From assembly GCA_013822265.1 (NCBI GenBank), contig PNKD01000006.1, positions 1 to 64,000 of the forward strand: a stretch of 64,000 bases of DNA, written 5' to 3'. Position 1 is the first letter of the stretch. Every line of letters starts with the position of its first letter. The notes under the pieces were generated by a model that searched no databases, was not told the DNA's origin, and worked only from the letters and a program-made list of their open reading frames with translations. Both the position numbers and the translations under genes were made by a program. This DNA is from Leptothrix sp. (in: b-proteobacteria). Its GTDB lineage: Bacteria; Pseudomonadota; Gammaproteobacteria; Burkholderiales; Burkholderiaceae_C. This document shows, in pieces, positions 6,852 to 26,201 of this stretch.

Positions 6852-6879
6852 CCTGCCCCCTTGTTTTCTTTTCGGATGA

Positions 6880-6909
6880 CCGGCCAAACCTTCGTTGAGG
6901 ATTGGCCGG
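6880..6909. promoter_or_regulatory. Perfect 8-bp dyad in the gajA / NACHT divergent intergenic
   Basis: The arms ccggccaa (6880-6887) and ttggccgg (6902-6909) are exact inverted repeats separated by 14 bp. They lie 29 bp upstream of the gajA start, inside the 174-bp region from which gajA and the NACHT gene diverge. The spacing is right for a dimeric repressor site, but a leader hairpin is equally possible. No regulator gene is adjacent. Confidence 0.35.
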
Positions 6910-11983: not shown

Positions 11984-12031
11984 GGTGCAACCCCCTTGTG
12001 GGCCGACACCCAAGAGTACCCAGGAGAACCT

Positions 12032-13819
12032 GTGCAACTGACCTTACCGATCGCCCGAATCGTGCAGGGGAAGAATCCCCGCGAGTATTTCGACCTCGAC
12101 GAGATGACCGAACTCGAAGAAGGCATCCGCGCCTTCGGCGTGATCGAGCCCATCATCGTTCGACCCGTTCCCGGCACGGACCACTTAGAAATCATCGCAG
12201 GCGAGCGCCGCTGGCGTGCCGCGAAGAACGTGTTCGGCGACAGCTACGACATGCCCGTCGTCATCCGCGAAGCCAGCGACGCCGACAGCGAGGCCATCGC
12301 GCTGATCGAGAACTACCACCGCGCCGGCATGTCGATGGCCGAAGAGGCGCGCACCGCGCAGCGGCAACTGCTGCGCAACCGCGGCGACAAGGCGGAAACC
12401 GCACGCAACCTGGGCTGGTCACTCGACGTGCTGGAAAGCCGTCTTGCGCTGATGGCCTGCACGCCGGCCGTGCTCAAGGCATTGACGCATCGACAGATCA
12501 TGCTGGGGCATGCCGAACTGCGGGCGGGCGTGCCTCCGGAGAAGCAGGACACGGTGCTGTCCGCCATCGTCGCGCACAAGGTGCCGGTCGCGGTGCTCAA
12601 GGCGCAGTTGGGCCAGTACGTGCGGCGACTGGCGGATGCCATCTTCGACACAGCGCCCTGCACCGGATGCCCACACAACTCGGCACGGCAGGCAGGACTG
12701 TTCTCCGAATCCCTCGGCGAGGGCTACTGCCAGCATCCCACGCACTTCGACGAACTGACCCTGCAGGCCGTGGACGCCAGGGCGGCGGCGTTGAAGGACG
12801 AATACCCGGTGATCCGGATCGTGAAGATCACCGATGGATTCACGCCGCTGCCGGTGTCAGCGGAGGGCGGGCTCGGCGTCGGCGATGCACAGTACGTGTC
12901 GTGCCAGGGATGCCAGTCGTTCGGCTGCGCCGTCTCGGCCATGCCCGGCTCGTATGGTGAGGTCACCCGGTCGCTGTGCTTCGACGCCGGCTGCAACAGC
13001 CAGAAGGTCGCGGCATGGCGCAAGGCGCAGCGCGAAGCGGTCTCGGGGCCGGCGCCGCTCGCCGACGGGAGTTCGAAGCAGGGTCGTGCGCACAAGGGTG
13101 CGAAGCGGACCCCCGGCCCCGTCAAGCCGGTGGCAGTGCAGAAAGCATCGAACCAGACGCCGCAGCGTGTGGTGGATCACCGCATCGCGCAGTGGCGCAG
13201 ATGGGTTGCCAACGCGCTCATGACGCAGCCCGAGCGCAACCACCGCGTCCTGATCGCGCTCGCGCTGGCAGGACGCGGCAGCGACCTTCGCAGCGAGCAG
13301 TTTGCCAAGGTGGCCGACAAGCTTGCCGGGACCGCAAGCCGGTTCCAGTCGAACCTCGGCGGGCACCTGCGCTGCGCGCACGCCATCGAGACGGATCGAC
13401 TGGACAAGCTCGTGCACGCGGTGACCGCATCCGCAGCCTTCGGCGTCGATGTCCGCAACCTCGAACTGCTGCTGAATTACCTGGAGGTTGACGAGGCGCG
13501 CTGCTTCCGACTGGACAAGACCTTCCTCGATCTGTTCACGATGAGCGAACTCGAGAGCCTCGCCGAGGAACTTGGCTTGAAGCGGGTGATGGGGCAAGGT
13601 TTCAAGACGGTGCGGGCCGGCAAGAAAGCCGAGTTCATCGCCGCGCTGCTTGCCGTCGAGGGATTCGAGTACCGGGGCGCGGTGCCGCAGGTCATGCGCT
13701 ACCCGCGCCATGCCGTCATCGGCGCTGCATACGACGAGCCGCAGACGCCGCCCGATGACGCCGGGGACGGCACCGCCGATGCAGTGGCCGACGACAAAAC
13801 ACGGGTCCTGGCAGCGTGA
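12032..13819 (+). CDS. PRTRC system ParB-family protein
   Basis: This 595-residue ParB-like protein is the first gene of a PRTRC (ParB-related, ThiF-related) cassette. The N-terminal ParB/sulfiredoxin-type domain (about residues 3-100) contains the box ERRWRAAKN near 62. A helix-turn-helix region follows near 110-160. Two cysteine clusters, CTGCPH (about 208) and CQGCQSFGC (about 290), suggest a metal-binding insert. The C-terminus ends in a low-complexity tail. The GTG at 12032 is preferred because AGGAG lies just upstream, and the alternative TTG at 11996 has no ribosome site. Such proteins occur with the downstream E, C, F, B, A and ThiF genes on plasmids and integrative elements; their function is unproven. 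Confidence 0.85.
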   Translation: MQLTLPIARIVQGKNPREYFDLDEMTELEEGIRAFGVIEPIIVRPVPGTDHLEIIAGERRWRAAKNVFGDSYDMPVVIREASDADSEAIALIENYHRAGMSMAEEARTAQRQLLRNRGDKAETARNLGWSLDVLESRLALMACTPAVLKALTHRQIMLGHAELRAGVPPEKQDTVLSAIVAHKVPVAVLKAQLGQYVRRLADAIFDTAPCTGCPHNSARQAGLFSESLGEGYCQHPTHFDELTLQAVDARAAALKDEYPVIRIVKITDGFTPLPVSAEGGLGVGDAQYVSCQGCQSFGCAVSAMPGSYGEVTRSLCFDAGCNSQKVAAWRKAQREAVSGPAPLADGSSKQGRAHKGAKRTPGPVKPVAVQKASNQTPQRVVDHRIAQWRRWVANALMTQPERNHRVLIALALAGRGSDLRSEQFAKVADKLAGTASRFQSNLGGHLRCAHAIETDRLDKLVHAVTASAAFGVDVRNLELLLNYLEVDEARCFRLDKTFLDLFTMSELESLAEELGLKRVMGQGFKTVRAGKKAEFIAALLAVEGFEYRGAVPQVMRYPRHAVIGAAYDEPQTPPDDAGDGTADAVADDKTRVLAA

Positions 13820-13918
13820 AGGCCGCACAGGCCGCCCCCCGCCGAACAGGCACTGGACACACAGGGGACGCCCCATAGGATGAATCCATGGGGTGTTCCC
13901 ATTCAAGGAGTGGATGAC

Positions 13919-14392
13919 ATGACGATGTTCGAAGAACTGCATGCGCTGGCGACCGGCGCGACCCTCACGATGATCGTGAGCGCCGACGAGAAAACCGGCC
14001 GGATGACGGTCCACGTGATCCCGAAGCCGAGGAAGGACGTGGACGAACCGGCGCTGACCAAGGCACTGAGTCTCACGGCCACGCCGCAGGAGTTCGATGC
14101 CGGTTTCGTGGAAGCGCTGCGTGGCTACCGCGAGGTGCGGCACAGCCTTGCCGAACAGGCCGAGGCCACCAAGGAAGTGCTGGAAGCCGCCAAGCAGGCT
14201 TCGGTCAAGAAAGCGGGAGACGCTGCGTCCAAGGCGGGGAAGCCCGCTGCTGCGGCGAGCAGCGCGCCAGTCGCGACAGCACCTGCAATGCCGGTGTCGA
14301 GCACGACCGAGGACGACGAGACCGAGGACCAGGCCCAGGCGCCAGCGGCGGCCATTGCCGGCGGCAGCGCGGCGCTCGACTTGTTCGGCTGA
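13919..14392 (+). CDS. PRTRC system protein E
   Basis: This 157-residue protein begins MTMFEELHALATGATLTM, which matches the opening of PRTRC protein E. It has a beta-rich N-terminal half with VHVIPKPRKD, a coiled-coil-like helical middle (about 70-100) and an acidic/alanine-rich disordered tail ending LDLFG. The start at 13919 follows AAGGAGT at 7 nt spacing; an in-frame ATG at 13880 lacks a ribosome site. No enzymatic motif is seen. It sits 99 bp after the ParB-like gene in the same direction, so it is probably co-transcribed. Its molecular role is unknown. Confidence 0.75.
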   Translation: MTMFEELHALATGATLTMIVSADEKTGRMTVHVIPKPRKDVDEPALTKALSLTATPQEFDAGFVEALRGYREVRHSLAEQAEATKEVLEAAKQASVKKAGDAASKAGKPAAAASSAPVATAPAMPVSSTTEDDETEDQAQAPAAAIAGGSAALDLFG

Positions 14393-14533
14393 AACGGACG
14401 GCGCCCCGGACTGCCACAGCGACTCGTCCGCGCGATGGACTTGATGGCCGGCCGTCCGCTGAGAGACTGACTGCAGGGCAACCGAGACGTGGTTGCCGAC
14501 CACGACGACACAAGCAGAGCACAAGGAGAAGCG

Positions 14534-14974
14534 ATGTCCATCGAAGTCAACGAAATCCAACGGCGCTTTCGCTACAACGGCATCCTGCTGCCGGATGTGC
14601 CGGGCCTGGATCCCCGCGAAGTGCGCGACCTGTACAGCGCGCAATACCCCGAACTGGTGAGCGCCGAAATCGAGTCCGGCGAAGTGCGCGACGGCGTGCA
14701 GGAGTTCAGTTTCCGCAAGGCCGTGGGCACCAAGGGAGCAACCCGCCGCGCAGGCAAGCGCCTCGCTGCCTTGTCGGCACAGGTCGATGCCGAGGCCGAT
14801 GGCCGCGTCGCGGGCGCGGACGGCAAGCTGGTCAAGGCCCTGAACCGCAGCAGCGTGAGGCGTTGCGCGCAAGCCTGGAGTGCCTTCGCGCACCGCGCGC
14901 TCGCGGCCAACCCGCAGCAGCGCGATGCGTCGCGGATGACGCCGCCGAGCGAGTCCCTGGCACCGCTGCCGTGA
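14534..14974 (+). CDS. PRTRC system protein C, ubiquitin-like, with C-terminal extension
   Basis: Residues 1-68 are the PRTRC-C module (MSIEVNEIQRRFRYNG ... AVGTKG), proposed to be a ubiquitin-like beta-grasp fold. In the family as I know it the protein ends at or near this TKG glycine. Here it runs on for 78 residues (69-146) of basic, helical sequence. Because the same cassette encodes E1-like, E2-like and JAB-peptidase-like proteins, the extension may be removed to expose Gly68, which is inference. AAGGAG precedes the ATG. The stop overlaps the protein F start (GTGA). Confidence 0.75.
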   Translation: MSIEVNEIQRRFRYNGILLPDVPGLDPREVRDLYSAQYPELVSAEIESGEVRDGVQEFSFRKAVGTKGATRRAGKRLAALSAQVDAEADGRVAGADGKLVKALNRSSVRRCAQAWSAFAHRALAANPQQRDASRMTPPSESLAPLP

Positions 14975-15978
14975 ACTACGCGATGACACTGCCGCGCTTG
15001 TCGGCAGGCATCCCTCGAACGCTGTTGCCCTCCCCACTGGCGAAAGCCAACGCCACCGTGTCGCGCTTCCTGATCGATGCGGGCGCCATCCGCGAGGGCG
15101 ACCTGCCGGCCGCGTGGGACGCCACGCTGCGGGTCTGCGAACAGGCCCTCGATGCCTGGGTCAAGCGCCAGATTGGATCGCTGCACTGCCTCTCGCCGGG
15201 CTTTGCGATGGGGGCTCTGAACGACGGTGGTCGCTATCCCCTGGCCCAGGCCGCCGTGCCGTTGCACTACAGCGCGGTCGATCTCTACTGGTACGAGACG
15301 CGCGAAGGCGAATGGCCCATCGGCGAGGGGCTGGAGGCGCTGGAGCGTGCCTGTGCAGGCCTCGGTGCCGCCGTGCTCAAGGTCTTGGCCGAAAGAAGCC
15401 GCTTCATCTACCCGCTGTTCACGCCCGACATCGCCTGCGACGTGGCGACCTACGTGTACTGGTGCGGCGAGGAGAACGAAGAGATCGCGCTGGACATGCA
15501 GTGCGGGGAGGATGAGGAGGCGAGGACGGCGATGCGCGAAGAGATGGTCACGAGCCAGACGCTGATCGAGGCGTATCCCGATTGGGCCCGGTGCTGGCCA
15601 CCCGGCAATCCGAGGGCGCATCGCGCGCCGAGTCTGTCGAGCATGGCGCGCAGGCTGGACGATCCACGGGCACAGCAGATCGCTGCCGACGCACTCGCGT
15701 TGTCCCGCCTGCGAATCGAAGACGAATTCCGGCCCGACATCGACGGCGAATACATTGGCTTCGGTGCCGTGCTGTCCTGGCGCGAGAGCGACGTGACGGT
15801 GCGCATCTACGACGACTTGCTGAACCTCGCGCACCAGGCCGAGTTCTGCGACCGCATCGGCGAACTGCAGATGCCACTGAACGAGCCTCAACGCATGGCC
15901 GATTGGCAGCAGGCCATGCGCACGCGTTTCAAGGCCATCGGGCTGATCGACCGCTTGATCCACCAGCTTTCGGGGTGA
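14971..15978 (+). CDS. PRTRC system protein F
   Basis: This 335-residue protein has the PRTRC protein F sequence style, opening MTLPRLSAGIPRTLLP shortly after the start. It is acidic in the middle and contains a tryptophan/tyrosine-rich central part (LYWYETREGEWP). It has no membrane segment and no catalytic motif I can name. The GTG at 14971 is taken as the start since it overlaps the stop of protein C as GTGA; an ATG four codons later is possible. It is part of the co-directional cassette, and its function is not established for any member. Confidence 0.72.
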   Translation: MNYAMTLPRLSAGIPRTLLPSPLAKANATVSRFLIDAGAIREGDLPAAWDATLRVCEQALDAWVKRQIGSLHCLSPGFAMGALNDGGRYPLAQAAVPLHYSAVDLYWYETREGEWPIGEGLEALERACAGLGAAVLKVLAERSRFIYPLFTPDIACDVATYVYWCGEENEEIALDMQCGEDEEARTAMREEMVTSQTLIEAYPDWARCWPPGNPRAHRAPSLSSMARRLDDPRAQQIAADALALSRLRIEDEFRPDIDGEYIGFGAVLSWRESDVTVRIYDDLLNLAHQAEFCDRIGELQMPLNEPQRMADWQQAMRTRFKAIGLIDRLIHQLSG

Positions 15979-16037
15979 GACTGGAGGCTGGAATCGAAGG
16001 CGCACGACGTGTGCCGACAACGGCTTTGGAGACGACG

Positions 16038-16292
16038 ATGAGAAGCGAGAGATTGCTGCGAGTCAGCTACTCGACCAGGGACGCCAGGCAGGCGTTGAAG
16101 CAGCTGATCCCGTGCATGGCGTCGGGATTCAACGTCAACGCCATCCACGGCAACTGTTCAGTGAACGGCGCAGATGCGAAGGCGCTCGCAGACTTGCTCG
16201 CGGAGCGCATCGTGTCGCGCCTCGAAGACACCAAGGCGCGCAGGAAGCAGCGGGACGCAGGCACGAAACCCGGCCAGCCGTCGAAGCCGTGA
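16038..16292 (+). CDS. Small protein within the PRTRC cassette
   Basis: This is an 84-residue protein with an N-terminal beta/alpha segment (RVSYSTRDARQALKQLIP) and a basic C-terminal tail rich in K, R and Q. I do not recognise a family. It is placed between F and B with gaps of 59 and 14 bp and in the same direction, so it is probably an accessory member of the cassette. The ATG at 16038 follows a GGAGACGACG stretch that can serve as ribosome site. Confidence 0.6.
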   Translation: MRSERLLRVSYSTRDARQALKQLIPCMASGFNVNAIHGNCSVNGADAKALADLLAERIVSRLEDTKARRKQRDAGTKPGQPSKP

Positions 16293-16306
16293 GGGACCTC
16301 AACACC

Positions 16307-17044
16307 ATGAACCAAGCTGAGTTTTCGATCAGGACGCAGACGGACGGCATCCTGCGTCTGGACCGGGCGGTGCTGATCTACCACGGGGCCTCGGGCAGCG
16401 CCTTCGCGACGGTGCACGAGGTCGAGGACGTGGATGGGGAATCGGTGATCGGCGCGGGGCAGGCGATGACGCCGCGCGCCGCCATCGATCTGGCGCGCGC
16501 GCTGAACAAGAACGTGGCGCATGGGGGCTTCCTGCCGGAGACGGTGCTGTACATGGATGGCGATCTGTTGTTGTGGTGGCTGCCGCCGGGCAAGCGGCAC
16601 ATCGCATTCCGCACCGAAGGCCATGAAGAACAGATGGGCGCGCTTGAGCGCGGCGAGACGGTGCCACACCCCGGGCTGGTGTTCGCAGCCTCGAGCCGCG
16701 TCTGGAAGGTGTGGGCCGTCAAGGGCAGCACCCGGCCCACGCCGGCCACGCTGCTGTACCAGGCGCCGTACTTCAACGTCTACCCGAACGGCGACATCTG
16801 CCAAGGCAACGTGCCGCGGCCCGAGGGCACCACGGCCGAGAAGATCGAGGCCTGGAACGATGCCTTCTTGCGCTCCTACTTCACGCACCCCAACACCCAG
16901 GGCAAGCTGGTCAGCTACCGGGGTGGTGCTTACGCGTTCTGGCGCGACATGCTGGACGGCAAATTCGGCCGCTTCCCCGAGCGTGTCCTGGTAGATGCGA
17001 AGCAGACGCTGGGTGCGCTGCTCGGCGCGAAGGAGGGTGCGTGA
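16307..17044 (+). CDS. PRTRC system protein B, E2-like
   Basis: This 245-residue protein matches PRTRC protein B, with an N-terminal beta sheet, a central VLYMDGDLLLWWLPPG hairpin and LYQAPYFNVYPNGDICQG in the second half. Members have been proposed to carry an E2 (ubiquitin-conjugating)-like fold, in which the cysteine of GDICQGN (about residue 166) would be the candidate catalytic residue; that assignment is inference. The stop overlaps the ATG of protein A (ATGA), so A and B are translationally coupled, as expected for a conjugation/deconjugation set. Confidence 0.75.
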   Translation: MNQAEFSIRTQTDGILRLDRAVLIYHGASGSAFATVHEVEDVDGESVIGAGQAMTPRAAIDLARALNKNVAHGGFLPETVLYMDGDLLLWWLPPGKRHIAFRTEGHEEQMGALERGETVPHPGLVFAASSRVWKVWAVKGSTRPTPATLLYQAPYFNVYPNGDICQGNVPRPEGTTAEKIEAWNDAFLRSYFTHPNTQGKLVSYRGGAYAFWRDMLDGKFGRFPERVLVDAKQTLGALLGAKEGA

Positions 17045-17736
17045 TGGACCCGCGCGATGTCGCACTGCAATCGACCTGTCCCGTGGTTGCCATGCCGCGC
17101 TACGGGCTGCTGCCCGACATGCAGAACGGTCAGCGCGTGATCGTGGCCGCCAACGGCGTGTTCGTGCAGATCAAGCTGGACTGGCTGGACTGCGTGCAGC
17201 GCCTGATGCCTTGCCAGCCCGGCATGCCCTTGCCCTATGGGCATGTGCAGGAGCGCGTGGCGTTCTCGTTCGGTGTGCTGCCGATCCGCCTGATCGAAGC
17301 CTTCGTCGAGCAGGCTCGAAAGGCACTGCCCAACGAGGCAGCAGGTGCACTGGTCTATTCGCGCCGCACGCGCGGCCTGCGGCTGGCGATGTGCGATGCG
17401 CTGAGAAGTTCACCGGCCCACATCGACTACCGCCTGCCGGCGGTGGCCGATGACGAAACCGTGGCTGTGGACCTGCACACCCACGGGCGCGGCACGCCGT
17501 TCTGGTCACCCGACGACGACCGGGACGACCAGGGCATCAAGGTTGCGGGTGTCTTCGGGTGCCTGCACCACACGCGGCCCATGGCCGAGTTCCGGCTGGT
17601 GCTCAACGGCGTGTACCGAGCATTGCCCCACCCGTGGCAGGCCGTCGTGCCGGCGACAGAGGATCACCAGGACGATGCCCTTGAGGCGGGCGTGTTGCAC
17701 AAGATACTGAGCCTGTTGAACAGAGCGAGGGCCTGA
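17044..17736 (+). CDS. PRTRC system protein A, JAB/MPN+ peptidase-like
   Basis: This 230-residue protein has a C-terminal JAB/MPN domain. The JAMM metal motif is visible as DLHTHGRG followed by FWSPDDD (about residues 143-160), i.e. H-x-H plus S-x-x-D. An upstream glutamate lies in the LPNEAAGALVY segment (about 97-107). JAMM peptidases cleave isopeptide or C-terminal extensions of ubiquitin-like proteins. The N-terminal 80 residues are specific to PRTRC-A. All catalytic positions seem intact, so an active zinc peptidase is expected. It is coupled to B upstream and is 2 bp from the ThiF gene downstream. Confidence 0.8.
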   Translation: MDPRDVALQSTCPVVAMPRYGLLPDMQNGQRVIVAANGVFVQIKLDWLDCVQRLMPCQPGMPLPYGHVQERVAFSFGVLPIRLIEAFVEQARKALPNEAAGALVYSRRTRGLRLAMCDALRSSPAHIDYRLPAVADDETVAVDLHTHGRGTPFWSPDDDRDDQGIKVAGVFGCLHHTRPMAEFRLVLNGVYRALPHPWQAVVPATEDHQDDALEAGVLHKILSLLNRARA

Positions 17737-17738
17737 AC

Positions 17739-18551
17739 GTGGAACATCGGATCGACAGGAGGTTGCTGGACCGCCGCGTGGCCATCCACCTGGTTGGCGT
17801 CGGCGGCAACGGCGCGCAGATGGCAACGTGTCTGGCGCGTCTGGACATCGCGATGAAGGCGCTGGGGCATCCCCACGGACTGCACGTCACGGCCTTCGAC
17901 GCCGACAGGGTGAGCGAAGCCAACGTCGGCCGCCAGCTCTACAGCCCTGCCGACGTGGGGCGTTTCAAGGCGCTGGTGACGATCCATCGCCTCAACCAGT
18001 TCTACGGCCTGGACTGGGCGGCCCACCCGGCCCGCTACGAGGACTACCAGCGCGAGCGCCGACTCCACCTGAACGCCGACATCCTGATCAGTTGCGTGGA
18101 CAGCCGGTCGGCACGCCGCGCGATCCATGCCCACCTGTTCCATCAGTACGCCGAGTCTCGGTATTGGCTGGACCTCGGCAACACCGAATCGACGGCACAG
18201 GTGGTGCTCGGGCAGGCGCCCAGGCGGGCTGCGTCAGCCAAGGAAGGGCCGCGTCTGCCGTGTATCACCGAACTGTTCCCGGAACTGCTGGACGAAGCGG
18301 TGCCGGACGACAACCGCCCCTCGTGTTCGGTCCGCGTGTCGCTGGCCTCGCAGGGGCTCTTCGTGAATGACGTTGCGGTGCGCTTCGCCGCGCAACTGCT
18401 CTACGAACTGTTCTCAACCGGCCGGCTCTCGGAACACGGCGTGATGGTCAACCTCGGCTCCAAGCGCAGTGGTCCCATCGAAATCGATCCACGGACATGG
18501 CGGCGCTTCGGGTACGTCGAGGATGCCGATGCTGTCGCCGAACCTGCCTGA
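17739..18551 (+). CDS. PRTRC system ThiF-family (E1-like) protein
   Basis: This 270-residue protein has a Rossmann ATP-binding core: VGVGGNG at residues 19-25 and FDADRVSEANVGRQ near 53-66, the usual ThiF/MoeB adenylation signature including the arginine. The best candidate catalytic cysteine is in PSCSVRVS near residue 195. E1-like enzymes adenylate the C-terminal glycine of a ubiquitin-like partner, and protein C of this cassette is the obvious partner. The start is GTG at 17739. It completes the core of the cassette; only a small gene follows before defence cargo begins. Confidence 0.85.
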   Translation: MEHRIDRRLLDRRVAIHLVGVGGNGAQMATCLARLDIAMKALGHPHGLHVTAFDADRVSEANVGRQLYSPADVGRFKALVTIHRLNQFYGLDWAAHPARYEDYQRERRLHLNADILISCVDSRSARRAIHAHLFHQYAESRYWLDLGNTESTAQVVLGQAPRRAASAKEGPRLPCITELFPELLDEAVPDDNRPSCSVRVSLASQGLFVNDVAVRFAAQLLYELFSTGRLSEHGVMVNLGSKRSGPIEIDPRTWRRFGYVEDADAVAEPA

Positions 18552-19018: not shown

Positions 19019-19948
19019 TCAGGCCAGCATGATGTCGCGCACATCGCGCAACGCAGCGGCGAAGTTCACACCGGCACCCGCCAGCACGTCGTGCGGCGTG
19101 AGGTCCGGGAATTTGAGGCCGGTCATCGCTTCGATGGCCGCCAGAGGCCGCTGCTGGTGCTCGAAGTCGCCGAACACGAAGGCCGGCTTGAGGTCGGCGA
19201 CGGCCTTGGCTTGCGAGGCCAGGTAGCCGGTGGCCGTGAGCGCCCCGGTCTCGTCGTGCACGAAGGCCACGATCTTCCAGAACCGCACCGGAACCTTCAC
19301 CCCGTGCACGACCGGATCGGTGGCCGCAAACACCGGTCCTGTGAACACGCTGACGCGCATGCTGTCGGTCTTGGTGTTGCCCAGCACGTAGTCCTCGATG
19401 CCGCCCCACAGGCCGTCATTGAAGGACTGCACCTGCGGGGCTGCGTTCGTCGCGTGGAAGGTGTCTGCGTCGGCCCGGGTGGCCACGGACTTCGCGCCCC
19501 AGTCGGGATCCTGCCGGCGGGTCATGTGACCGCGACTGAAGTAGCCGTCCTTCTGATTGCCGTAGACCTCTTTGAGTATCTGGTACTGCTGAGGGATACG
19601 CGGGTCGAATTTCCAGATGTCGGTGCGGGCGATGGTTTTGGCGGCAGAGCCGTTGATATTGCATGCGCTGAATATCGGCATGCGGCGTGATTTGGAAACC
19701 GCCGTGGAAAAGTGCGTGTAGGTGAGGACGTGGGTCTTCTCGCCCTTCCAGTCGAAGCTGACGGCGTCGCGCTTGGCGGCCGCCCCCAGGCGGGGCAGGG
19801 CGACGGACAAGCTGGCATCGATGAACTGAGGGTCGTAGCCGGTGCGGTCCTCATAGCTCTCCACGGAGTCTGGGGTCAGGCGCACCCGCTGGGCGGCCAG
19901 TTCGGGTGCCGGTGCGAACCGGTAGCGTGGCGTCGACCGTTTCGGCAT
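19019..19948 (-). CDS. DNA/RNA non-specific endonuclease (NUC1/EndoG-like)
   Basis: This 309-residue protein has the beta-beta-alpha-metal nuclease signature. The DRGH-type motif reads SRGHM at 138-142, followed by TRRQDPDWG. The metal-binding asparagine region reads NAAPQVQSFNDGLW at about 171-184, and a glutamate follows in GIEDYV. The DRGH aspartate is replaced by serine, as seen in some family members. There is no signal peptide, unlike secreted nucleases, so it should act inside the cell. The ATG at 19948 follows a GGGGGAAAG ribosome site. Upstream is an inhibitor-like gene and a subtilase in the same direction, suggesting a protease-controlled toxic nuclease, which is inference. Confidence 0.8.
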   Translation of the reverse strand: MPKRSTPRYRFAPAPELAAQRVRLTPDSVESYEDRTGYDPQFIDASLSVALPRLGAAAKRDAVSFDWKGEKTHVLTYTHFSTAVSKSRRMPIFSACNINGSAAKTIARTDIWKFDPRIPQQYQILKEVYGNQKDGYFSRGHMTRRQDPDWGAKSVATRADADTFHATNAAPQVQSFNDGLWGGIEDYVLGNTKTDSMRVSVFTGPVFAATDPVVHGVKVPVRFWKIVAFVHDETGALTATGYLASQAKAVADLKPAFVFGDFEHQQRPLAAIEAMTGLKFPDLTPHDVLAGAGVNFAAALRDVRDIMLA

Positions 19949-19967
19949 GTCTTTCCCCCAGGACGTG

Positions 19968-19991
19968 AAAAAGCCCGGCGAGCCGGGCTTT
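19968..19991 (-). terminator. Hairpin terminator between I9-like gene and endonuclease gene
   Basis: The sequence aagcccgg-cga-gccgggctt forms an 8-9 bp GC stem with a short loop. On the minus strand it is followed by a run of T residues, so it reads as a rho-independent terminator for the subtilase/I9 transcript. It lies only 20 bp before the endonuclease start, meaning the nuclease depends on read-through or its own promoter. Confidence 0.6.
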
Positions 19992-20004
19992 CGTTGGAAC
20001 CGTG

Positions 20005-20244
20005 TCAGACGGGCTGCTTCAGCACCTTGTGCGGCGGCCTGATGCCGGCACTCCCGGCCGGTGAAAAAGTCCACAGCTTGAGATTCTTCACGACAGCCGC
20101 CACTTCGGCTTCTGAACCATCCACCAGGATGTTGCCGGGCATGCGGTCGATGACCTTGGCGCGCTTCAGCGAAGACACGAGCGATCGCTCCTCTCCTGCG
20201 GGAGGATCCGTCACGCCCTGGTAGAGGATCACGAAGCGGCTCAT
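20005..20244 (-). CDS. Small I9-propeptide-like protein (candidate subtilase inhibitor)
   Basis: This 79-residue protein starts MSRFVILYQGV and continues with a helix (EERSLVSSLKRAKV), a short strand (NILVDGS), a helix (EAEVAAVVKNL) and a strand (LWTFSPAG). This order and its hydrophobic pattern fit the ferredoxin-like I9 inhibitor/propeptide of subtilases, here encoded separately. It starts 12 bp after the subtilase stop, so the two are made together. A free I9-like protein could chaperone and inhibit the protease in trans. The fold is inferred from pattern only. The tail IRPPHKVLKQPV is extra to the family. Confidence 0.5.
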   Translation of the reverse strand: MSRFVILYQGVTDPPAGEERSLVSSLKRAKVIDRMPGNILVDGSEAEVAAVVKNLKLWTFSPAGSAGIRPPHKVLKQPV

Positions 20245-20256
20245 AGCGCGACCATC

Positions 20257-21759
20257 CTACCGCAAAAGCCCCGCCCCCTCAAACGACGCCCCGAAGCCCA
20301 GGGTCTGGACGGCGGTGAGGGCCAGTTTCATGATGGCGTCAGACCGTTTCTGGTTCCTGTCCATGCCCAGCACCTTGGGCTTGCCGGCCAGCGCCCGGGC
20401 CAGGGCGCCGGTGGCCACCGGGCAGGCCATCGACGTGCCATCCATCACGGCGTAGCCTCCTGGGTAGGCCGAGACGATGCCCACACCGGGCCCGGACAGG
20501 TCGACGCCGCTGCCGATGTTGCTGAAGCCGGCCACGAAATTCTTCCGGTCGGTGCCGAACGGCTTGACTGCTTCGAGTTCCTGGGCGGCACCGGCCGGAT
20601 AGGTCGCCTTGCGCCCGAAGGCGCTGATGCCCAGCGCCTGGCTGTAGCGGGCCGGGTAGTTGACCGGGCCCCGGTAATCGTTGCCGGTGGCGGCCAGACA
20701 AACCACACCCAGCGCCCGGGCTCGCTGGATTTCGCGCAGGACGTCCGGAATATCGACCTCGCCGCCCAGGGACAGGTTGATCAGGTCGCAGCCATCGTCA
20801 ACCGCCTGCCGGATGCCCTTGGCGATGTTGAACGACAGTGCGGTTTCCTGCCCTTTCGCGAACACCCGGTACACGTGGAGGTCGACACCCGGCGCCACAC
20901 CCCGAACACCGCTGCCTGATTTGGCTCGGCCGGCGACGATGCCGCACACGTGCGTGCCGTGGCCGATCAAGTCGCTCGCGTCCTTGGCGGCCTCGCCCTT
21001 GACGACGTTCAGCGACTTGGCCACATGCAGGTCCTTGTGCTTGGCGACGCCGGTGTCCACCACCGCCACCTTGACGCCCGCACCGTCCGCATCAGCCCCC
21101 TCGAACCCGAAATGCCCCCGGGCCTCCTGTACCGCCAGATCGATAGGGACGCACGACAGCGTGAGGCTGCCGCTGGACGTCTGAACGGCCGATGTATACG
21201 CCGGCCAGTGGCCAGACGGTGCGAAGGCTTCGATGGACTCAAGGACCGTGACGCTGGAGGGAAACAGCAGCTTTGCGACGCCCTTGCTGTTCGTGGTGTT
21301 GCTGGCACCGACGCGGTTGGCGCGGTCGGTCATGCCGACAACCTCGACCCCGGCGAGGGCCTTGCCGGTCGCTGCATCCACGACCTTGACCTCAAGCGAG
21401 GTCTTCGTCCCTGCCGACACGCCGATCAGCGGGGACAGCTTGAAGCGCCTGAGCCACAAGGGCGAGAGTTCTGCGACCGGGGCGATGCGCAGGCCGGGGT
21501 GGGCGCGCAGCAGGTTGAAGCGCTCGGCTTCGTCCATGGACACCAGCACGGTTTCGTGGGGCGCGACCTCGTCGATCAGGGTCACGTCCAGCGCCGCTTC
21601 ATCCAGGCTCACCGGCGCTTTCGCTCGCAGGTGCGCGCCCAACTGCCGGCTGATCGAGCGCATGAAGATCTGGCTGCCGCCTGGGGCGTCAGTGTTCCAG
21701 ACGTTCAGGTTGGGAAGCACCACGAATAGCGAGCCCCGCCGGCGATCAGATTCGGACAT
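20257..21759 (-). CDS. S8 family serine peptidase (subtilase), cytoplasmic
   Basis: This 500-residue subtilase has an intact catalytic triad: Asp235 in VAVVDTGVAKHKD, His267 in GHGTHVCGIVAG and Ser at about 446 in MDGTSMACPVATG. Residues about 119-185 form a carboxypeptidase-regulatory/Ig-like beta domain (SLEVKVVDAATGKALAGVEV). There is no signal peptide, so it should be intracellular. The ATG at 21759 is preferred over a start 43 codons upstream because AGGGGAGA precedes it. A separate I9-like gene follows immediately and then a nuclease. Cytoplasmic proteases next to effectors are common in conflict systems, but the target here is unknown. Confidence 0.85.
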   Translation of the reverse strand: MSESDRRRGSLFVVLPNLNVWNTDAPGGSQIFMRSISRQLGAHLRAKAPVSLDEAALDVTLIDEVAPHETVLVSMDEAERFNLLRAHPGLRIAPVAELSPLWLRRFKLSPLIGVSAGTKTSLEVKVVDAATGKALAGVEVVGMTDRANRVGASNTTNSKGVAKLLFPSSVTVLESIEAFAPSGHWPAYTSAVQTSSGSLTLSCVPIDLAVQEARGHFGFEGADADGAGVKVAVVDTGVAKHKDLHVAKSLNVVKGEAAKDASDLIGHGTHVCGIVAGRAKSGSGVRGVAPGVDLHVYRVFAKGQETALSFNIAKGIRQAVDDGCDLINLSLGGEVDIPDVLREIQRARALGVVCLAATGNDYRGPVNYPARYSQALGISAFGRKATYPAGAAQELEAVKPFGTDRKNFVAGFSNIGSGVDLSGPGVGIVSAYPGGYAVMDGTSMACPVATGALARALAGKPKVLGMDRNQKRSDAIMKLALTAVQTLGFGASFEGAGLLR

Positions 21760-21899
21760 GTTGCGTCTCCCCTGGCGTGAATTGTTGTCGCCGAATGGTA
21801 CTGCCGGGCGCGAGAACAACCGCCTTGGCCCTCGCACCCAGGTCGCGCGGGTGCACCGACGTCGCTTGAGGCTCCCGTGCCGCTGCAATCACCGAGCGC

Positions 21900-21934: not shown

Positions 21935-22612
21935 ATGCGATATCCGGGCGGCAAGGGCAAGTGCTATCAGCGGCTGATCAGCCTGATGCCGCCGCACACC
22001 ACTTACATCGAATCCCACCTCGGTGGCGGGGCGGTCCTTCGCAACAAGCGTCCAGCGCAGATTAGCATCGGCATCGACGCAGATGCGCAGGTCATCGATC
22101 GCTGGCAGCGCGAGCACTCGGATCTTTGCAGGCTCGTTCACGGCGATGCCGCGTCCTTCCTGGCGAACTACCCCTTTCGTGGAGACGAACTCGTCTACGC
22201 CGATCCGCCGTACTTGGCCGAGGTACGACGCAGGCCGAAGGTCTATCGGCACGACTACTCCAGGGCCGACCACGAGCGGCTGTTGGCGGTGTTCAGGTCA
22301 CTGCCGTGCAGGGTGATGCTGTCGGGCTACGACAGCGCGATGTATCGCAGCTTGCTCTCGGACTGGCGTTGCGTGAGCTTCGCCGCCAAGACGCATGTGG
22401 ATGTCCGGCAGGAGTGGGTCTGGCTCAACTTCGATCCGCCGGCGATCCTGCACGATGCCTCGCATCTTGGCGCCACATTTCGCGAGCGCCAGACGATCAA
22501 GCGACGCCACGCGCGGATGGTCGACAGATTCAGCCGGATGGACCCTGTGGAGCGCAACCAGGTTCTTTCGATGCTGAACGATCAGTACGGGAACAGGACG
22601 GGCGGACCATGA
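21935..22612 (+). CDS. D12 class N6-adenine DNA methyltransferase (Dam-like)
   Basis: This 225-residue enzyme opens MRYPGGKGK, the classic SAM-binding start of the D12 class. It has a motif I region (YIESHLGGGAVL) and the catalytic DPPY at residues 90-93. The size is slightly below Dam (about 270) but all core motifs are present. It would methylate adenine in a short DNA site. The stop overlaps the glycosylase start (ATGA), so the two are translationally coupled, an unusual pairing. No restriction endonuclease is adjacent. It is divergent from the subtilase gene. Confidence 0.85.
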   Translation: MRYPGGKGKCYQRLISLMPPHTTYIESHLGGGAVLRNKRPAQISIGIDADAQVIDRWQREHSDLCRLVHGDAASFLANYPFRGDELVYADPPYLAEVRRRPKVYRHDYSRADHERLLAVFRSLPCRVMLSGYDSAMYRSLLSDWRCVSFAAKTHVDVRQEWVWLNFDPPAILHDASHLGATFRERQTIKRRHARMVDRFSRMDPVERNQVLSMLNDQYGNRTGGP

Positions 22613-23451
22613 CGCAGTCCGGCGCAGTGTTTCTGGGACCCACGACCGTGCAGATCGAGCTGCCGGCATGCGGCGACGAGGCGTTGCCGGGCGTCGCCTG
22701 GGGCTCGATCGATGCGTTCCCGACGCCGGCCTACTGGGCCTACCAAGTGATCGCCCGCCGCGTAGGCGGCGCGCCGGCACGGCATCGCCTCGGGCAGACG
22801 CTGGCGGAGGAGGTGGCGGCGTGTTTGCTCGGCGGCCACGGAATTCCGGCCAGCGTGGGCATCGCGGCGTTTCGGAGGCTGCAGTCGCTCGACATGCTCG
22901 ACTCGGCACCTAGCGAGGAGGAACTGTTGCATCAGTTGACCGTCCCGCTGGTGGTGAACGGCCGACCGGTCAAGTACCGATTCGCCCGGCAAAAGGCGAA
23001 GTACCTCGACGCCGCCCTGAAGCGGTTGTCCGCAGAATCACCTCCGACGGAGTGCGGTCGGGCACTGCGGGACTGGCTTGTCGAACTGCCTGGCATCGGG
23101 TTCAAGACTGCGTCCTGGGTGGCACGCAACTGGCTCGACGCCGACGACGTGGCGATTCTGGACATCCACATCCTGCGCGCCGGGGCGCTGGGGGGCTTCT
23201 TCGACCGCAGCTTGACCGTGGAGCGCGACTACCATGAGCTCGAAGCCCAGTTCATTCGATTCAGCCGGGCCATCGGTGTCCGGCCCTCGGAACTCGACGC
23301 GGTGATCTGGTTCGAGATGATGTCTTCGCCAGCGACCGTCACCCAACTGCTGGGTGGCAGACGAGGCGGTGATGCCTCAGCGCGCGCGTCATCGCGGCGT
23401 CGCTCCCACGATCGCGGCACCGACCCCCATCAGGCCCGGCTGATCGAGTAA
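22609..23451 (+). CDS. HhH-GPD DNA glycosylase, OGG1-like
   Basis: This 280-residue protein has the helix-hairpin-helix of bifunctional glycosylases, LPGIGFKTASWVARN, with the candidate Schiff-base lysine at 166. The catalytic aspartate follows at 185 in AILDIHILRAG. The rest of the C-terminal half matches 8-oxoguanine glycosylase/AGOG-type proteins, whose reaction is to excise a modified purine and nick the strand. The N-terminal 80 residues are not recognised. It is coupled to the D12 methyltransferase upstream. The last 21 codons (rich in R and S) overlap convergently with the nitroreductase gene. It could be a repair enzyme or a base-excision effector. Confidence 0.75.
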   Translation: MTQSGAVFLGPTTVQIELPACGDEALPGVAWGSIDAFPTPAYWAYQVIARRVGGAPARHRLGQTLAEEVAACLLGGHGIPASVGIAAFRRLQSLDMLDSAPSEEELLHQLTVPLVVNGRPVKYRFARQKAKYLDAALKRLSAESPPTECGRALRDWLVELPGIGFKTASWVARNWLDADDVAILDIHILRAGALGGFFDRSLTVERDYHELEAQFIRFSRAIGVRPSELDAVIWFEMMSSPATVTQLLGGRRGGDASARASSRRRSHDRGTDPHQARLIE

Positions 23452-24063
23452 GCGGCTGGTCCACGGTTCACCGGTGACGCCGAGTGGGCAGAAGCTCAGG
23501 CCCAGTGCCTCCGCGGCCATCGACAGCCAACCCAGAAGGACACCCGCGTCGCGCCAGACCAAGCTGCAGGGATGGTCGTACTTCGCGGCTGTCATGGCAC
23601 CTTCGGCAGCCAGCAGCAGCAGAGTCGCACTTGGGGCCGCAAGCACCTCGTCCATGGCGCGCCGGACATGCTGAGCATCGACGCTCGTTGGCACGTTTAC
23701 CAATGCATGCCGGAAGGGGTCATAGCGCTGCCAGTCGGACGTACCAGGCTCCAGCAAGATCAGGTGGATCGGGTGGATGGCGCCAGCCGAAGGCGCAGGA
23801 CGCCGCGTCAACGGAAATCCGAGTTCTGTGTCCCCGACCTGTTGCACACGACAGGTGAGCGTCAGCAGGGTGCTGAACTGGCGTGCATCCAGCGCTGAAA
23901 AGCTGCGGCGCGTGCGCCGGCCCAAGGCCACCTCGCCGAACGACCGCATGGCAGCCTCCGAAGGAGGGGGCAGCGAAACGAGCGCACCGGTGGGCCAAAC
24001 GAGCGGTGTGTAGGGCCGTGCCGCCGACAACGGATGCGGGTTACCCAGGTCGATCCATGTCAT
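23389..24063 (-). CDS. SagB-type nitroreductase-family protein
   Basis: This 224-residue flavin-dependent nitroreductase-fold protein has the FMN-binding opening LGRRTRRSFSALDARQ (about residues 48-63) and PSAGAIHPIHLILLEP near 95-110, as in SagB/ThcOx-like enzymes. The C-terminal half has DAGVLLGWLSMAAEALGL and FCPLGV. These enzymes oxidise azolines in peptide maturation, and related ones are stand-alone. The start (ATG 24063) lies inside the end of the QueC-like gene, a 23-nt overlap, so it belongs to the same operon. It is the last gene of the four-gene set. Confidence 0.75.
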   Translation of the reverse strand: MTWIDLGNPHPLSAARPYTPLVWPTGALVSLPPPSEAAMRSFGEVALGRRTRRSFSALDARQFSTLLTLTCRVQQVGDTELGFPLTRRPAPSAGAIHPIHLILLEPGTSDWQRYDPFRHALVNVPTSVDAQHVRRAMDEVLAAPSATLLLLAAEGAMTAAKYDHPCSLVWRDAGVLLGWLSMAAEALGLSFCPLGVTGEPWTSRLLDQPGLMGVGAAIVGATPR

Positions 24064-24646
24064 GGTCGAGTTCCCGGAGCACCTCGAAGTACTTGTTGCA
24101 GCCGCGGCAGTCCCCGCAGGCGACATCCGCCTTGTGGCAACTGTGCGCCCACGCGAGTGCGCCGGCAGGCACGCCCGACTCGCGGGCCAACTCGGCCGTT
24201 GTCATCTCGATGGCGGGCGCTTCAACCCGCAGGCCGCCTTCCTGCAACGCCAACACGTTGCTGATGGCTGCCACGAAGGTCGGCGTGCCGTCACGGTGGG
24301 AGCCGTCGGACTTGACCGTACCGATCCACAGATGGTTCACGCCCAGGGCGATGGATTTCATCGCGGCCAATGTGATCAGCAGTTGGTTGCGATAGGGCCA
24401 CCAGTCGGCGGCTGGGGCGTGCACGCTCGCCTCCGCACCGGCCATGTCACCGGACCCGAGACTGCGGCAGTCGATGCGCAGGATGTGGTGCTCGATGCCC
24501 AACTGCTGGCAGATCGCCGACGACGCCGCGATCTCGGCCGCAGCCGGCAGTTGGCCGTAGTCGATCGTGATCGCCACGTCGGGGCGCTTCCACCAGGCGA
24601 TGCACAGCGAGTCCATGCCCCCCGACAACAGCAGGCCGGTCTTCAT
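24041..24646 (-). CDS. QueC-like 7-cyano-7-deazaguanine synthase family protein
   Basis: This 201-residue protein has the PP-loop ATPase motif SGGMDS at residues 8-13 and the QueC zinc site Cys170, Cys177, Cys180 and Cys183 (CxxxxxxCGDCRGC). QueC makes preQ0 for queuosine. Divergent QueC-like proteins are also known from anti-phage systems such as Qat and type IV CBASS. Here no queD, queE or queF is nearby and the gene is wedged between a PfkB-NDT fusion (ATGA overlap) and a nitroreductase. A conflict or modification role is therefore more likely than queuosine synthesis, which is inference. It is somewhat shorter than housekeeping QueC (about 230). Confidence 0.82.
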   Translation of the reverse strand: MKTGLLLSGGMDSLCIAWWKRPDVAITIDYGQLPAAAEIAASSAICQQLGIEHHILRIDCRSLGSGDMAGAEASVHAPAADWWPYRNQLLITLAAMKSIALGVNHLWIGTVKSDGSHRDGTPTFVAAISNVLALQEGGLRVEAPAIEMTTAELARESGVPAGALAWAHSCHKADVACGDCRGCNKYFEVLRELDHDMDRPG

Positions 24647-25875
24647 AGGGCGCAGGCAGTCCAGAGCGTCTCGTAGATGGCACTGACGTAGTCGTCGCGG
24701 AGGATGCAGCCCGATCCACGCATCATCTTCTTGTTCTCGTCCGATTCGTTTTCGCTGTACATCACGACCGGCTTCCCTTTGGCTCGCGCATAGCCGATTT
24801 CGTAGACGGTGCCGGAGTCCATGCCGTCACCGATGGCGAACACCAGGTCGGCCGTGTCGATGCCCGCAAGGTCCAGCATGACCACGTCTTCGGCGGAACC
24901 GTGCCCGACATCGTGGTATGGCGAAAACACCCGTAGACCCATGGCGCTCAGATCGGCGCGAGCCTGATCGACAAGCCAGAGTTGAGCCAGCGTGAAGAAC
25001 GGTCCTGCCAGGTACACGGTCGGGCGCCGTCCGGCCTGGTAGGCCGGCGATGCGTCAACCGGAGCGGGATGGAATCCTTCGAGACCTGAGGGCGTCGCGA
25101 ACCCGCGTGTCTGGCAGTAGTAGGCGGTCGCGCGAGAGGCGAGGTCGGCGCTCTCTGCCGCGGACCGGCCCTCGTGCATCCACCGATGGGCGAAGTGGGC
25201 GACGAAGTTGTCGCCCGACCCCAGCTTCCACACACTTGAAGAACGGTAGGCCGGGATCGACTGCGCGCTGCGACCGTCGTGGACCAACGCACCCATCGGG
25301 CCTTGCTTGATGATGACCACCTGCGCCGCGCCTTGCCGGATCAACGCCTCGGCCATCTGATCGGCTGGCGTGCCGGTCAGGCCGGTCAGCAGTGCCGCCT
25401 CATGGCGATTGAGTACCACCGCAAGCTGACGGGCAGTGGAGCCGTTGGCAGCAAAGGCCTGAGGCGCCACGGCATCCTGCGGATCGAACACGACCCTGTC
25501 GCCGTGCACGACGGCATCGCCCTCCATCATTCCAAAGCGCACGACACGTTCTGCGTGGACGGTCAACGGAAGATGGATGTCGCCAGTGCCATGGATCCGG
25601 GGCGTTTCCAGCCCATGGCGGTAGTCGAATGTGATGGGGCGATCAATTGGCGTCGACCGAACAACGAAGCCTTCCAGCGCGCCACGGGACTCCATCACTT
25701 CCCGCGCGAGGGGATCGAGGTACGAGTGCAATTCGACCGGTGCGCCCATGCTCGCGAGCGCAGACGCCGCGCGGCCTGCGGAACCGTAGATTTCTCGCCA
25801 TGCAGGTCGCATGCACCACTCGCGGTACACGCCACCGACAACAGCGATCGGTGCGATGGGATCGTCGCCGGCCAC
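24643..25875 (-). CDS. PfkB-family kinase fused to nucleoside 2-deoxyribosyltransferase
   Basis: This is a 410-residue two-domain protein. The N-terminal part (about 1-275) is a PfkB/ribokinase sugar-kinase fold with KLGSGDNF at about 214-221 in the place of the GAGD catalytic motif. The C-terminal part (from about 285) is a nucleoside 2-deoxyribosyltransferase with YLAGPFF and the catalytic glutamate in DSGTVYEIGYARA (about 350-362). Together they suggest handling of a nucleoside: kinase on the sugar and exchange or hydrolysis of the base. The start is GTG at 25875, 2 bp after the upstream stop. The downstream QueC-like gene overlaps by 4 nt. Confidence 0.75.
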   Translation of the reverse strand: MAGDDPIAPIAVVGGVYREWCMRPAWREIYGSAGRAASALASMGAPVELHSYLDPLAREVMESRGALEGFVVRSTPIDRPITFDYRHGLETPRIHGTGDIHLPLTVHAERVVRFGMMEGDAVVHGDRVVFDPQDAVAPQAFAANGSTARQLAVVLNRHEAALLTGLTGTPADQMAEALIRQGAAQVVIIKQGPMGALVHDGRSAQSIPAYRSSSVWKLGSGDNFVAHFAHRWMHEGRSAAESADLASRATAYYCQTRGFATPSGLEGFHPAPVDASPAYQAGRRPTVYLAGPFFTLAQLWLVDQARADLSAMGLRVFSPYHDVGHGSAEDVVMLDLAGIDTADLVFAIGDGMDSGTVYEIGYARAKGKPVVMYSENESDENKKMMRGSGCILRDDYVSAIYETLWTACAL

Positions 25876-25877
25876 GC

Positions 25878-26201
25878 TCAGGCAGCCTTGACCCGTACCC
25901 GCACTTGCCCGTCGTTCTTTGCGGTGACGGTCGCGACGTACTGGGTGCCCCCGGCCATGCACTCGCGCAAGCGTTGAACCAGCGGAGACGCCAGACCGCC
26001 CGCGACCTGGCCGTTGTGCAGGACCACCACCACGGTGGTGCCACCTACCGTCTGGGTCGCCACCAACAACTCGTCACCGACCTGAATGGCCGCAACGACA
26101 GCCTGCTTGGGGGAACTGAGCTGGGTGTCGAACACCAGCGCCGCACAGCTGTCGGGCGGCGAATCAAAGCCACCGCCGCCACCACCACCCGAACCCGACA
26201 T
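25878..26201 (-). CDS. Glycine-tailed small protein with HIRAN-like domain
   Basis: This 107-residue protein begins with Met-Ser-Gly-Ser, then seven glycines, then FDSPPDSC. The remainder is a compact beta-rich domain (VGDELLVATQ, TTVVVVLHNGQVAGG, YVATVTAKNDGQVRVRV) whose pattern resembles HIRAN domains that bind damaged or 3'-end DNA; the match is by eye. AGGAGG precedes the ATG at 26201. It is the first gene of the operon with PfkB-NDT, QueC-like and SagB-like genes. The flexible N-terminal glycine stretch looks like a site for covalent modification, possibly by the QueC-like protein, which is inference. Confidence 0.6.
   Translation of the reverse strand: MSGSGGGGGGGFDSPPDSCAALVFDTQLSSPKQAVVAAIQVGDELLVATQTVGGTTVVVVLHNGQVAGGLASPLVQRLRECMAGGTQYVATVTAKNDGQVRVRVKAA

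Follow-up and report, generated by a model that had tools for sequence, protein, structure and literature searches.

What does a QueC-family gene do when it sits in a compact operon with genes for a small glycine-tailed protein, a kinase-transferase fusion, and a flavin dehydrogenase? We address this question in a 64,000-nt stretch of Leptothrix sp. DNA (assembly GCA_013822265.1, contig PNKD01000006.1, positions 1 to 64,000), referred to here as the window. An original prediction, made from the sequence alone, had read four of its genes as a candidate undescribed nucleobase modification conflict system. Our analysis indicates that they probably belong to a mobile, modular antiphage system of the QueC tail-modification kind, distinct from the cyclic oligonucleotide-based antiphage signaling system (CBASS) and from Qat; both its conjugation and its defense role are inferred. 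The genes concerned are as follows.

25878..26201, minus strand: tail protein, 107 aa, with an N-terminal disordered Gly/Ser tail (MSGSGGGGGGGF) and a HIRAN-like beta domain
24643..25875, minus strand: PfkB-type kinase domain fused to a nucleoside 2-deoxyribosyltransferase (PfkB-NDT), GTG start
24041..24646, minus strand: QueC-family enzyme, 201 aa, with SGGMDS, YGQ, WWPYRNQ, HxDG (in place of YPDC), and CHx5CxxCxGCxK
23389..24063, minus strand: SagB-like flavin dehydrogenase (nitroreductase family), 224 aa
22609..23451, plus strand: 8-oxoguanine DNA glycosylase family protein (OGG), convergent, with a 63-nt tail-to-tail overlap with the SagB gene
21935..22612, plus strand: Dam-like adenine DNA methylase, DPPY motif, with a 4-nt overlap with the OGG gene

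The four predicted open reading frames were confirmed on the minus strand, coupled as tightly as had been claimed: read 5′ to 3′, a 2-bp gap separates the tail protein and PfkB-NDT genes, and the overlaps are 4 nt (PfkB-NDT/QueC) and 23 nt (QueC/SagB). Pfam matches were found for QueC (PF06508, 1.6e-23), NDT (PF05014, 5.2e-18), PfkB (PF00294, 5.2e-12), and nitroreductase (PF00881, 7.6e-07). These four genes are real, but the unit exceeds them, as the convergent, overlapping OGG and Dam-like pair, left out of the original prediction, belongs to the system.

Relatives were gathered via QueC. Ten of 24 related plasmid records were taken; a QueC alignment then gave 129 genome loci, of which the best 80 were used, and 14 loci on viral contigs, of which 7 were kept. 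The other viral loci, L100 to L106, which carry a canonical-type QueC at 24 to 30% identity, were dropped. With the window added, the sample held 98 loci, including near copies (e.g., L004/L015, L069/L071, L044/L093, and window/L013). Genes were counted over the 76 loci with at least 3.5 kb on either side, using dGTPase and nuclease profiles that each had one sequence behind them. The tail protein, PfkB-NDT, and QueC occurred together in 76/76 loci, accompanied by SagB in 63, OGG in 65, Dam in 31, a dGTPase-like gene in 22, and a nuclease-like gene in 4. A held-out set of 13 loci from evenly drawn genomes, reduced to 11 by dropping L154 and L155 as copies of L030 and L028, gave the complete core in 11/11 and SagB in 8/11, with OGG in the same 8 and in 0/3 of the SagB-less loci. 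The predicted neighborhood recurs in other genomes, and the refuting condition attached to the original prediction, that the genes would not adjoin one another elsewhere, did not hold. SagB was accompanied by OGG in 71/71 loci (63 main and 8 held-out), and OGG stood without SagB twice (L012 and L098). Control loci around queD in 20 host genomes (one of 13 kb and the others of 18 kb, with canonical QueC held by four) yielded 0/20 matches to the tail protein, PfkB-NDT, SagB, OGG, Dam, dGTPase, and nuclease profiles. Distances correlated between families (r, 0.77 to 0.95, kinship not removed), as expected under inheritance as a unit.

The loci thus hold a set of four to six genes traveling together on plasmids and genomic islands, with a constant core (tail protein, PfkB-NDT, and QueC) and variable modules: SagB plus OGG with or without Dam, dGTPase, and nuclease types. 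The 22 dGTPase-like genes lie from immediately after queC to 4.5 kb away, and single loci add an Mrr-type nuclease, an AAA ATPase with DUF4435, or a SIR2-like protein. Two loci (L077 and L090) carry after queC a 243-aa protein without a Pfam match, in which a GPATS...HL stretch looks by eye like a helix-hairpin-helix glycosylase; additional tail-protein-like and PfkB-like matches lie downstream of queC on a viral contig (L098:9591-11143). By record title, the loci span several bacterial phyla, together with plasmids of two haloarchaea. Distribution is patchy: with the center genome excluded, the system was found in 2/368 other genomes of its own class, 5/397 of its own phylum, 6/394 in the phylum of the L089 genome, and 1/391 in that of the L077 genome, so that all four draws fall below 2%.

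Catalytic residues are conserved in the partner proteins. PfkB-NDT retains D222 (GSGD, 0.99 of 96 rows) and E359 (GTxxExG, 1.00), which we take to be the catalytic Asp of PfkB and the NDT nucleophile, respectively. OGG keeps K166 and D185 in 76/76 rows, presumably the catalytic Lys and Asp of helix-hairpin-helix glycosylases, and the Dam DPPY motif is present in 35/35 rows. The SagB-type oxidase of the original prediction holds at the level of the wider family PF00881, but the protein falls under the cutoff of the NCBIfam SagB model TIGR03605 (8.5e-13; 48.2 bits versus 78.4) and has no match among PDB sequences at 0.01.

The tail protein starts with M-(S/G/T/C)-G, residue 2 being Ser in the window protein. 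A fitting M-[SGTCA]-G start was available in 92/98 loci, the pattern itself being the search rule, and in 11/11 held-out loci; independently of that rule, database-annotated starts showed it in 8/8 cases. Residues beyond positions 2 to 3 vary widely, and a conserved, folded, mainly beta domain comes after them. The protein had been called glycine-tailed and HIRAN-like. The glycine-rich stretch is indeed N-terminal, and the fold of the domain appears to resemble those of the HLTF HIRAN domain, Hachiman HamB, and lp_0118 at about 10 to 16% identity, but the likeness does not extend to sequence, with a HIRAN family match in 0/69 relatives at an E value of 0.1. Those 69 relatives gave 18 scattered weak Pfam families, and the window protein had no match in Pfam, PADLOC, or NCBIfam and no credible match among PDB sequences. 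On two haloarchaeal plasmids (L010 and L011), the beta domain apparently occurs twice in the protein, which starts with MGGGG or MCGGG; neither SagB nor OGG was found at these loci.

QueC retains the ATP loop, WWPxRNQ, and the zinc cysteines, in agreement with the predicted intact PP-loop and zinc site; each residue of the zinc motif (C170, H171, C177, C180, G182, C183, and K185) is present in 0.98 to 0.99 of 98 rows. Y30, G31, Q32, and E38 are also conserved, with five residues separating Q and E (the Cluster 4 motif is YGQ(x)6E). The match to the canonical QueC model TIGR00364 is below its cutoff (75.2 versus 150.3 bits). The canonical YPDC is replaced by HxDG, with D119 kept (0.99 of 98) and Tyr changed to His. 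In Cap9 the Asp reads the guanine edge of the base (PMC13279940), so the base-reading Asp is kept here and the stacking Tyr is His. The window QueC is assigned to “Cluster 4” of Libby et al. 2026 (PMC13329287), where QueC and PfkB-NDT are read as purine salvage and helix-turn-helix neighbors are noted. The two share the QueC subfamily (CHx5CxxCxGCxK) and the PfkB-NDT neighbor (76/76 loci).

The original description of the system as undescribed needs correction, since the pairing of QueC with PfkB-NDT is published. The main text of PMC13329287 contains no mention of SagB, nitroreductase, HIRAN, glycosylase, 8-oxoguanine, methylase, methyltransferase, or dGTPase. Neither the tail protein, SagB, OGG, Dam, and recurrent dGTPases beside this QueC nor any other paper on SagB, OGG, or PfkB-NDT with QueC in defense was found in the published literature (preprints largely outside the scope).

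One of the closest described systems is type IV CBASS, in which conjugation of 7-amido-7-deazaguanine to a protein N-terminus has been demonstrated (PMC11996544 and PMC13279940), the deazaguanylation of Wassarman et al. 2025 (PMC11996544). Both type IV CBASS and the present operon place a QueC-family enzyme of ~190 to 200 aa, with the base-reading Asp, beside a protein with a Gly/Ser-rich N-terminus. They differ in that the tailed protein here is HIRAN-like with Ser2, His stands for the stacking Tyr, and PfkB-NDT and SagB are added; a PADLOC scan that covered the operon, its neighbors, and other genes (18 of the roughly 49 in the window) gave no CD-NTase. A type IV CBASS locus in our collection (L107) has a CD-NTase starting MGGSGGGFF. 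A putative place for OGG in type IV CBASS was not confirmed: the OGG profile has no match on L107, literature searches for it gave nothing, and passages of two reviews do not name it.

In Qat, modification is inferred and the reaction resisted reconstitution, according to Gao et al. 2026 (PMC13279940). qatABCD likewise pairs a QueC-family enzyme with a protein bearing an essential N-terminal motif (MGTS), whereas QatC is about 400 aa with extensions (QueC here, 201 aa), QatB is helical rather than mainly beta, and neither a KAP ATPase nor TatD was found among the window proteins scanned. The M-(S/G/T/C)-G tail resembles those of the tailed QueC partners in both type IV CBASS (MGGS) and Qat (MGTS).

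Two rhizobial plasmids (L108:1637-6048 and L109:1655-6049) carry QueC, a PfkB relative, an OGG-type lyase, and two TIR proteins, one of which has a TGT-like half, whereas the other is ThsB-like and tailed, starting MGGGSSGSW or MGGGGGGNW, respectively. QueC, the OGG-type lyase, the PfkB relative, and the MGGG tail are shared with our operon; the difference is that the tail is on a ThsB-like TIR protein and the TGT-like domain is fused to another TIR. With L107, these loci indicate that the tail recurs on unrelated proteins beside QueC. The TGT-like half of L108, the one scanned, scores 22.7 bits against Pfam TGT (cutoff, 26.3), and inspection by eye shows no Glu motif in the NDT half of either plasmid, the profile covering it partly in L108. 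NDT thus looks degenerate at the loci that have TGT, a pattern suggesting, from two loci, that NDT and TGT read the same base.

We favor attachment of the base to the small protein because of its M-[SGTC]-G start and the analogy to CBASS and Qat. After Met removal, the N-terminal Ser, Gly, Thr, or Cys amine would enter the QueC active site, where QueC would activate a guanine-like acid at its carboxylate and join it to the tail through an amide bond, like Cap9 in type IV CBASS; the likeliest acid is 7-carboxy-7-deazaguanine (CDG) from the host. The NDT half would bind, and perhaps deoxyribosylate, the attached base (in the position held by the TGT-like Cap10 in CBASS), and the PfkB half would phosphorylate the tail-borne base. 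The HIRAN-like domain may sense nucleic acid ends, infection then freeing the OGG, dGTPase, or nuclease module to attack DNA or the dGTP pool, with exchangeable effectors. Counting in favor of this reading are the constant core, the lack of its partners in the controls, the correlated distances, the conserved active sites with the base-reading Asp, the recurrent tail starts, the tailed proteins of L107, L108, and L109, the HIRAN-like fold, the defense models matched in the flanks, the patchy distribution, and the low identity of the best match in phage records.

The claim that no other queuosine gene is present may hold for the window only, as contig C38 of this genome carries a canonical queC together with queD. 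QueD was present in 41/50 host genomes (chosen from the 80 genome loci), and seven of the nine QueD-less hosts have canonical QueC. A QueC/TGT follow-up covered 11 genomes, adding to the nine without QueD two whose QueD was weak; one of these two, the L049 host, was also without canonical QueC; TGT was found in 10 (all except the L037 host). In 14 control genomes, QueD was found in 9 and QueC in 12, and the comparison of CDG dependence was not decisive. Three of 98 loci (L008, L049, and L055) contain a VUT/YhhQ-type transporter, which we take to be a preQ0 importer and which perhaps supplies the base there.

The defense-rich, mobile setting claimed for the operon is coarsely supported. Flank proteins of 20 system loci matched 263 PADLOC models versus 49 for control flanks (134/188 system and 116/260 control proteins sampled at random, about 45,000 residues each, with core genes excluded), a coarse measure because many models overlap (25 listed). 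A Gabija pair (GajB, 3271 to 4917; GajA, 4917 to 6887) was detected by PADLOC in the window, and a PRTRC-type cassette (11996 to 18548; ParB, PRTRC_E, prokaryotic E2 family D, and ThiF) suggests a plasmid or integrative element. Positions 19019 to 21888 hold a nonspecific DNA/RNA endonuclease (19019 to 20074), a small open reading frame (20005 to 20244), and a subtilase (20257 to 21888); the subtilase and endonuclease could be a protease-nuclease conflict set. In annotated phage records (n = 50,697), 32 matches to QueC were found, the best 31.8% identical and of the canonical type; among the 15 listed, most are annotated as QueC of queuosine/preQ0 pathways. No Cap9 was found in viral contigs.

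Several observations weigh against a tail-modifying defense system. Residue 2 is mostly Ser, unlike the Gly of CBASS and Qat, and one locus (L027) is without a motif start. PfkB-NDT and SagB are without counterparts in CBASS or Qat as described, and no counterpart of Cap10/TGT was found (a Pfam scan of 20 window proteins gave no TGT). The L037 and L056 hosts, both metagenome-assembled genomes, show neither QueD nor canonical QueC, so a host CDG source is not universal. The whole core or a portion of it was found on seven IMG/VR contigs, which places some copies on predicted viral DNA. The defense enrichment of the flanks is a count of models, not systems.

SagB appears to track the second residue of the tail. 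Among the 86 loci whose start is known and for which 1.5 kb of downstream sequence is available, Gly2 occurred in 0/68 SagB loci versus 5/18 SagB-less loci (Fisher test, p = 2.5e-4, kinship ignored); the 11 held-out loci gave 0/8 versus 1/3, and the pooled counts are 0/76 versus 6/21. The tree shows 7 changes in SagB and 4 in Gly2, and a paired test of the two was not significant. One Gly2 locus (L076) has SagB in broken pieces only, and SagB and Ser2 are both present in the closely related L133. The absence of Gly2 beside SagB suggests azole formation, with tree-corrected support that is not significant. Taken further, the operon might rebuild the protein N-terminus into a nucleotide, with a Ser oxazole via SagB, deoxyribose via NDT, and phosphate via PfkB, which we regard as quite unlikely. 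QueC would then use two ATP steps, one to form the deazaguanine acid-Ser amide and one to activate that amide, the Ser hydroxyl closing an oxazoline that SagB would oxidize to the oxazole; Gly2 cannot cyclize, which would explain why it is never found with SagB. NDT would put deoxyribose on the base (from deoxyguanosine, supplied by the recurrent dGTPase), PfkB would phosphorylate it, and the HIRAN-like domain would hold the protein-borne deoxynucleotide at DNA 3′ ends, so that phage replication is tagged or blocked.

Three other explanations were weighed. Purine or deoxynucleoside salvage, the published suggestion of Libby et al. (PMC13329287) for Cluster 4, would have the QueC-like enzyme activate a purine-like acid and PfkB-NDT transfer deoxyribose and phosphorylate, with the tail protein as a regulator. 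PfkB and NDT are nucleoside enzyme families and dGTPase-like genes recur (22/76 loci), but a plasmid and island setting in <2% of genomes per draw fits salvage poorly, and the M-[SGTC]-G tail and the OGG, Dam, and nuclease partners are left unexplained; we consider it unlikely. A second alternative is DNA base modification with restriction: the enzymes would make a modified (deaza)deoxyguanosine nucleotide, Dam would mark self, OGG would excise bases in unmarked or modified phage DNA, and the HIRAN-like protein would recruit the enzymes to DNA. The invariant OGG Lys/Asp (76/76 rows) and Dam DPPY (35/35), along with the HIRAN-like fold, agree with this proposal, which is nonetheless improbable, given that no TGT/DpdA-type inserter was found among the 20 window proteins scanned, Dam occurs in only 31/76 loci, and the core stands without OGG in 11/76 loci and 3/11 held-out loci.

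Biosynthesis resembling that of ribosomally synthesized and posttranslationally modified peptides, in which SagB, with QueC as the activating ligase, matures the Gly/Ser N-terminus to a peptide product (cf. microcin-type azole peptides), draws on the association of the SagB family with the tail Ser and on SagB never occurring with Gly2 (0/76). It is very improbable, as the tail past residues 2 to 3 is highly variable, a conserved folded domain lies behind it, and neither YcaO nor an exporter was found among the window genes scanned beside the operon. Attachment of a guanine-like base to the tail protein remains the reading that we prefer.

A 2025 study reported protein-nucleobase conjugation in one CBASS type, and for Qat it is inferred. 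If our preferred reading is true, a separate system found across several bacterial phyla and on haloarchaeal plasmids would make such conjugation a general immune chemistry, and a published “purine salvage” cluster would be reread. The small substrate (107 aa) with one co-operonic ligase is perhaps simpler to test than Qat, and the link between SagB and Ser2 would become a direct chemical test. Rebuilding of the N-terminus into a nucleotide, if true, would account for the many operon enzymes from guanine or deoxynucleoside families.

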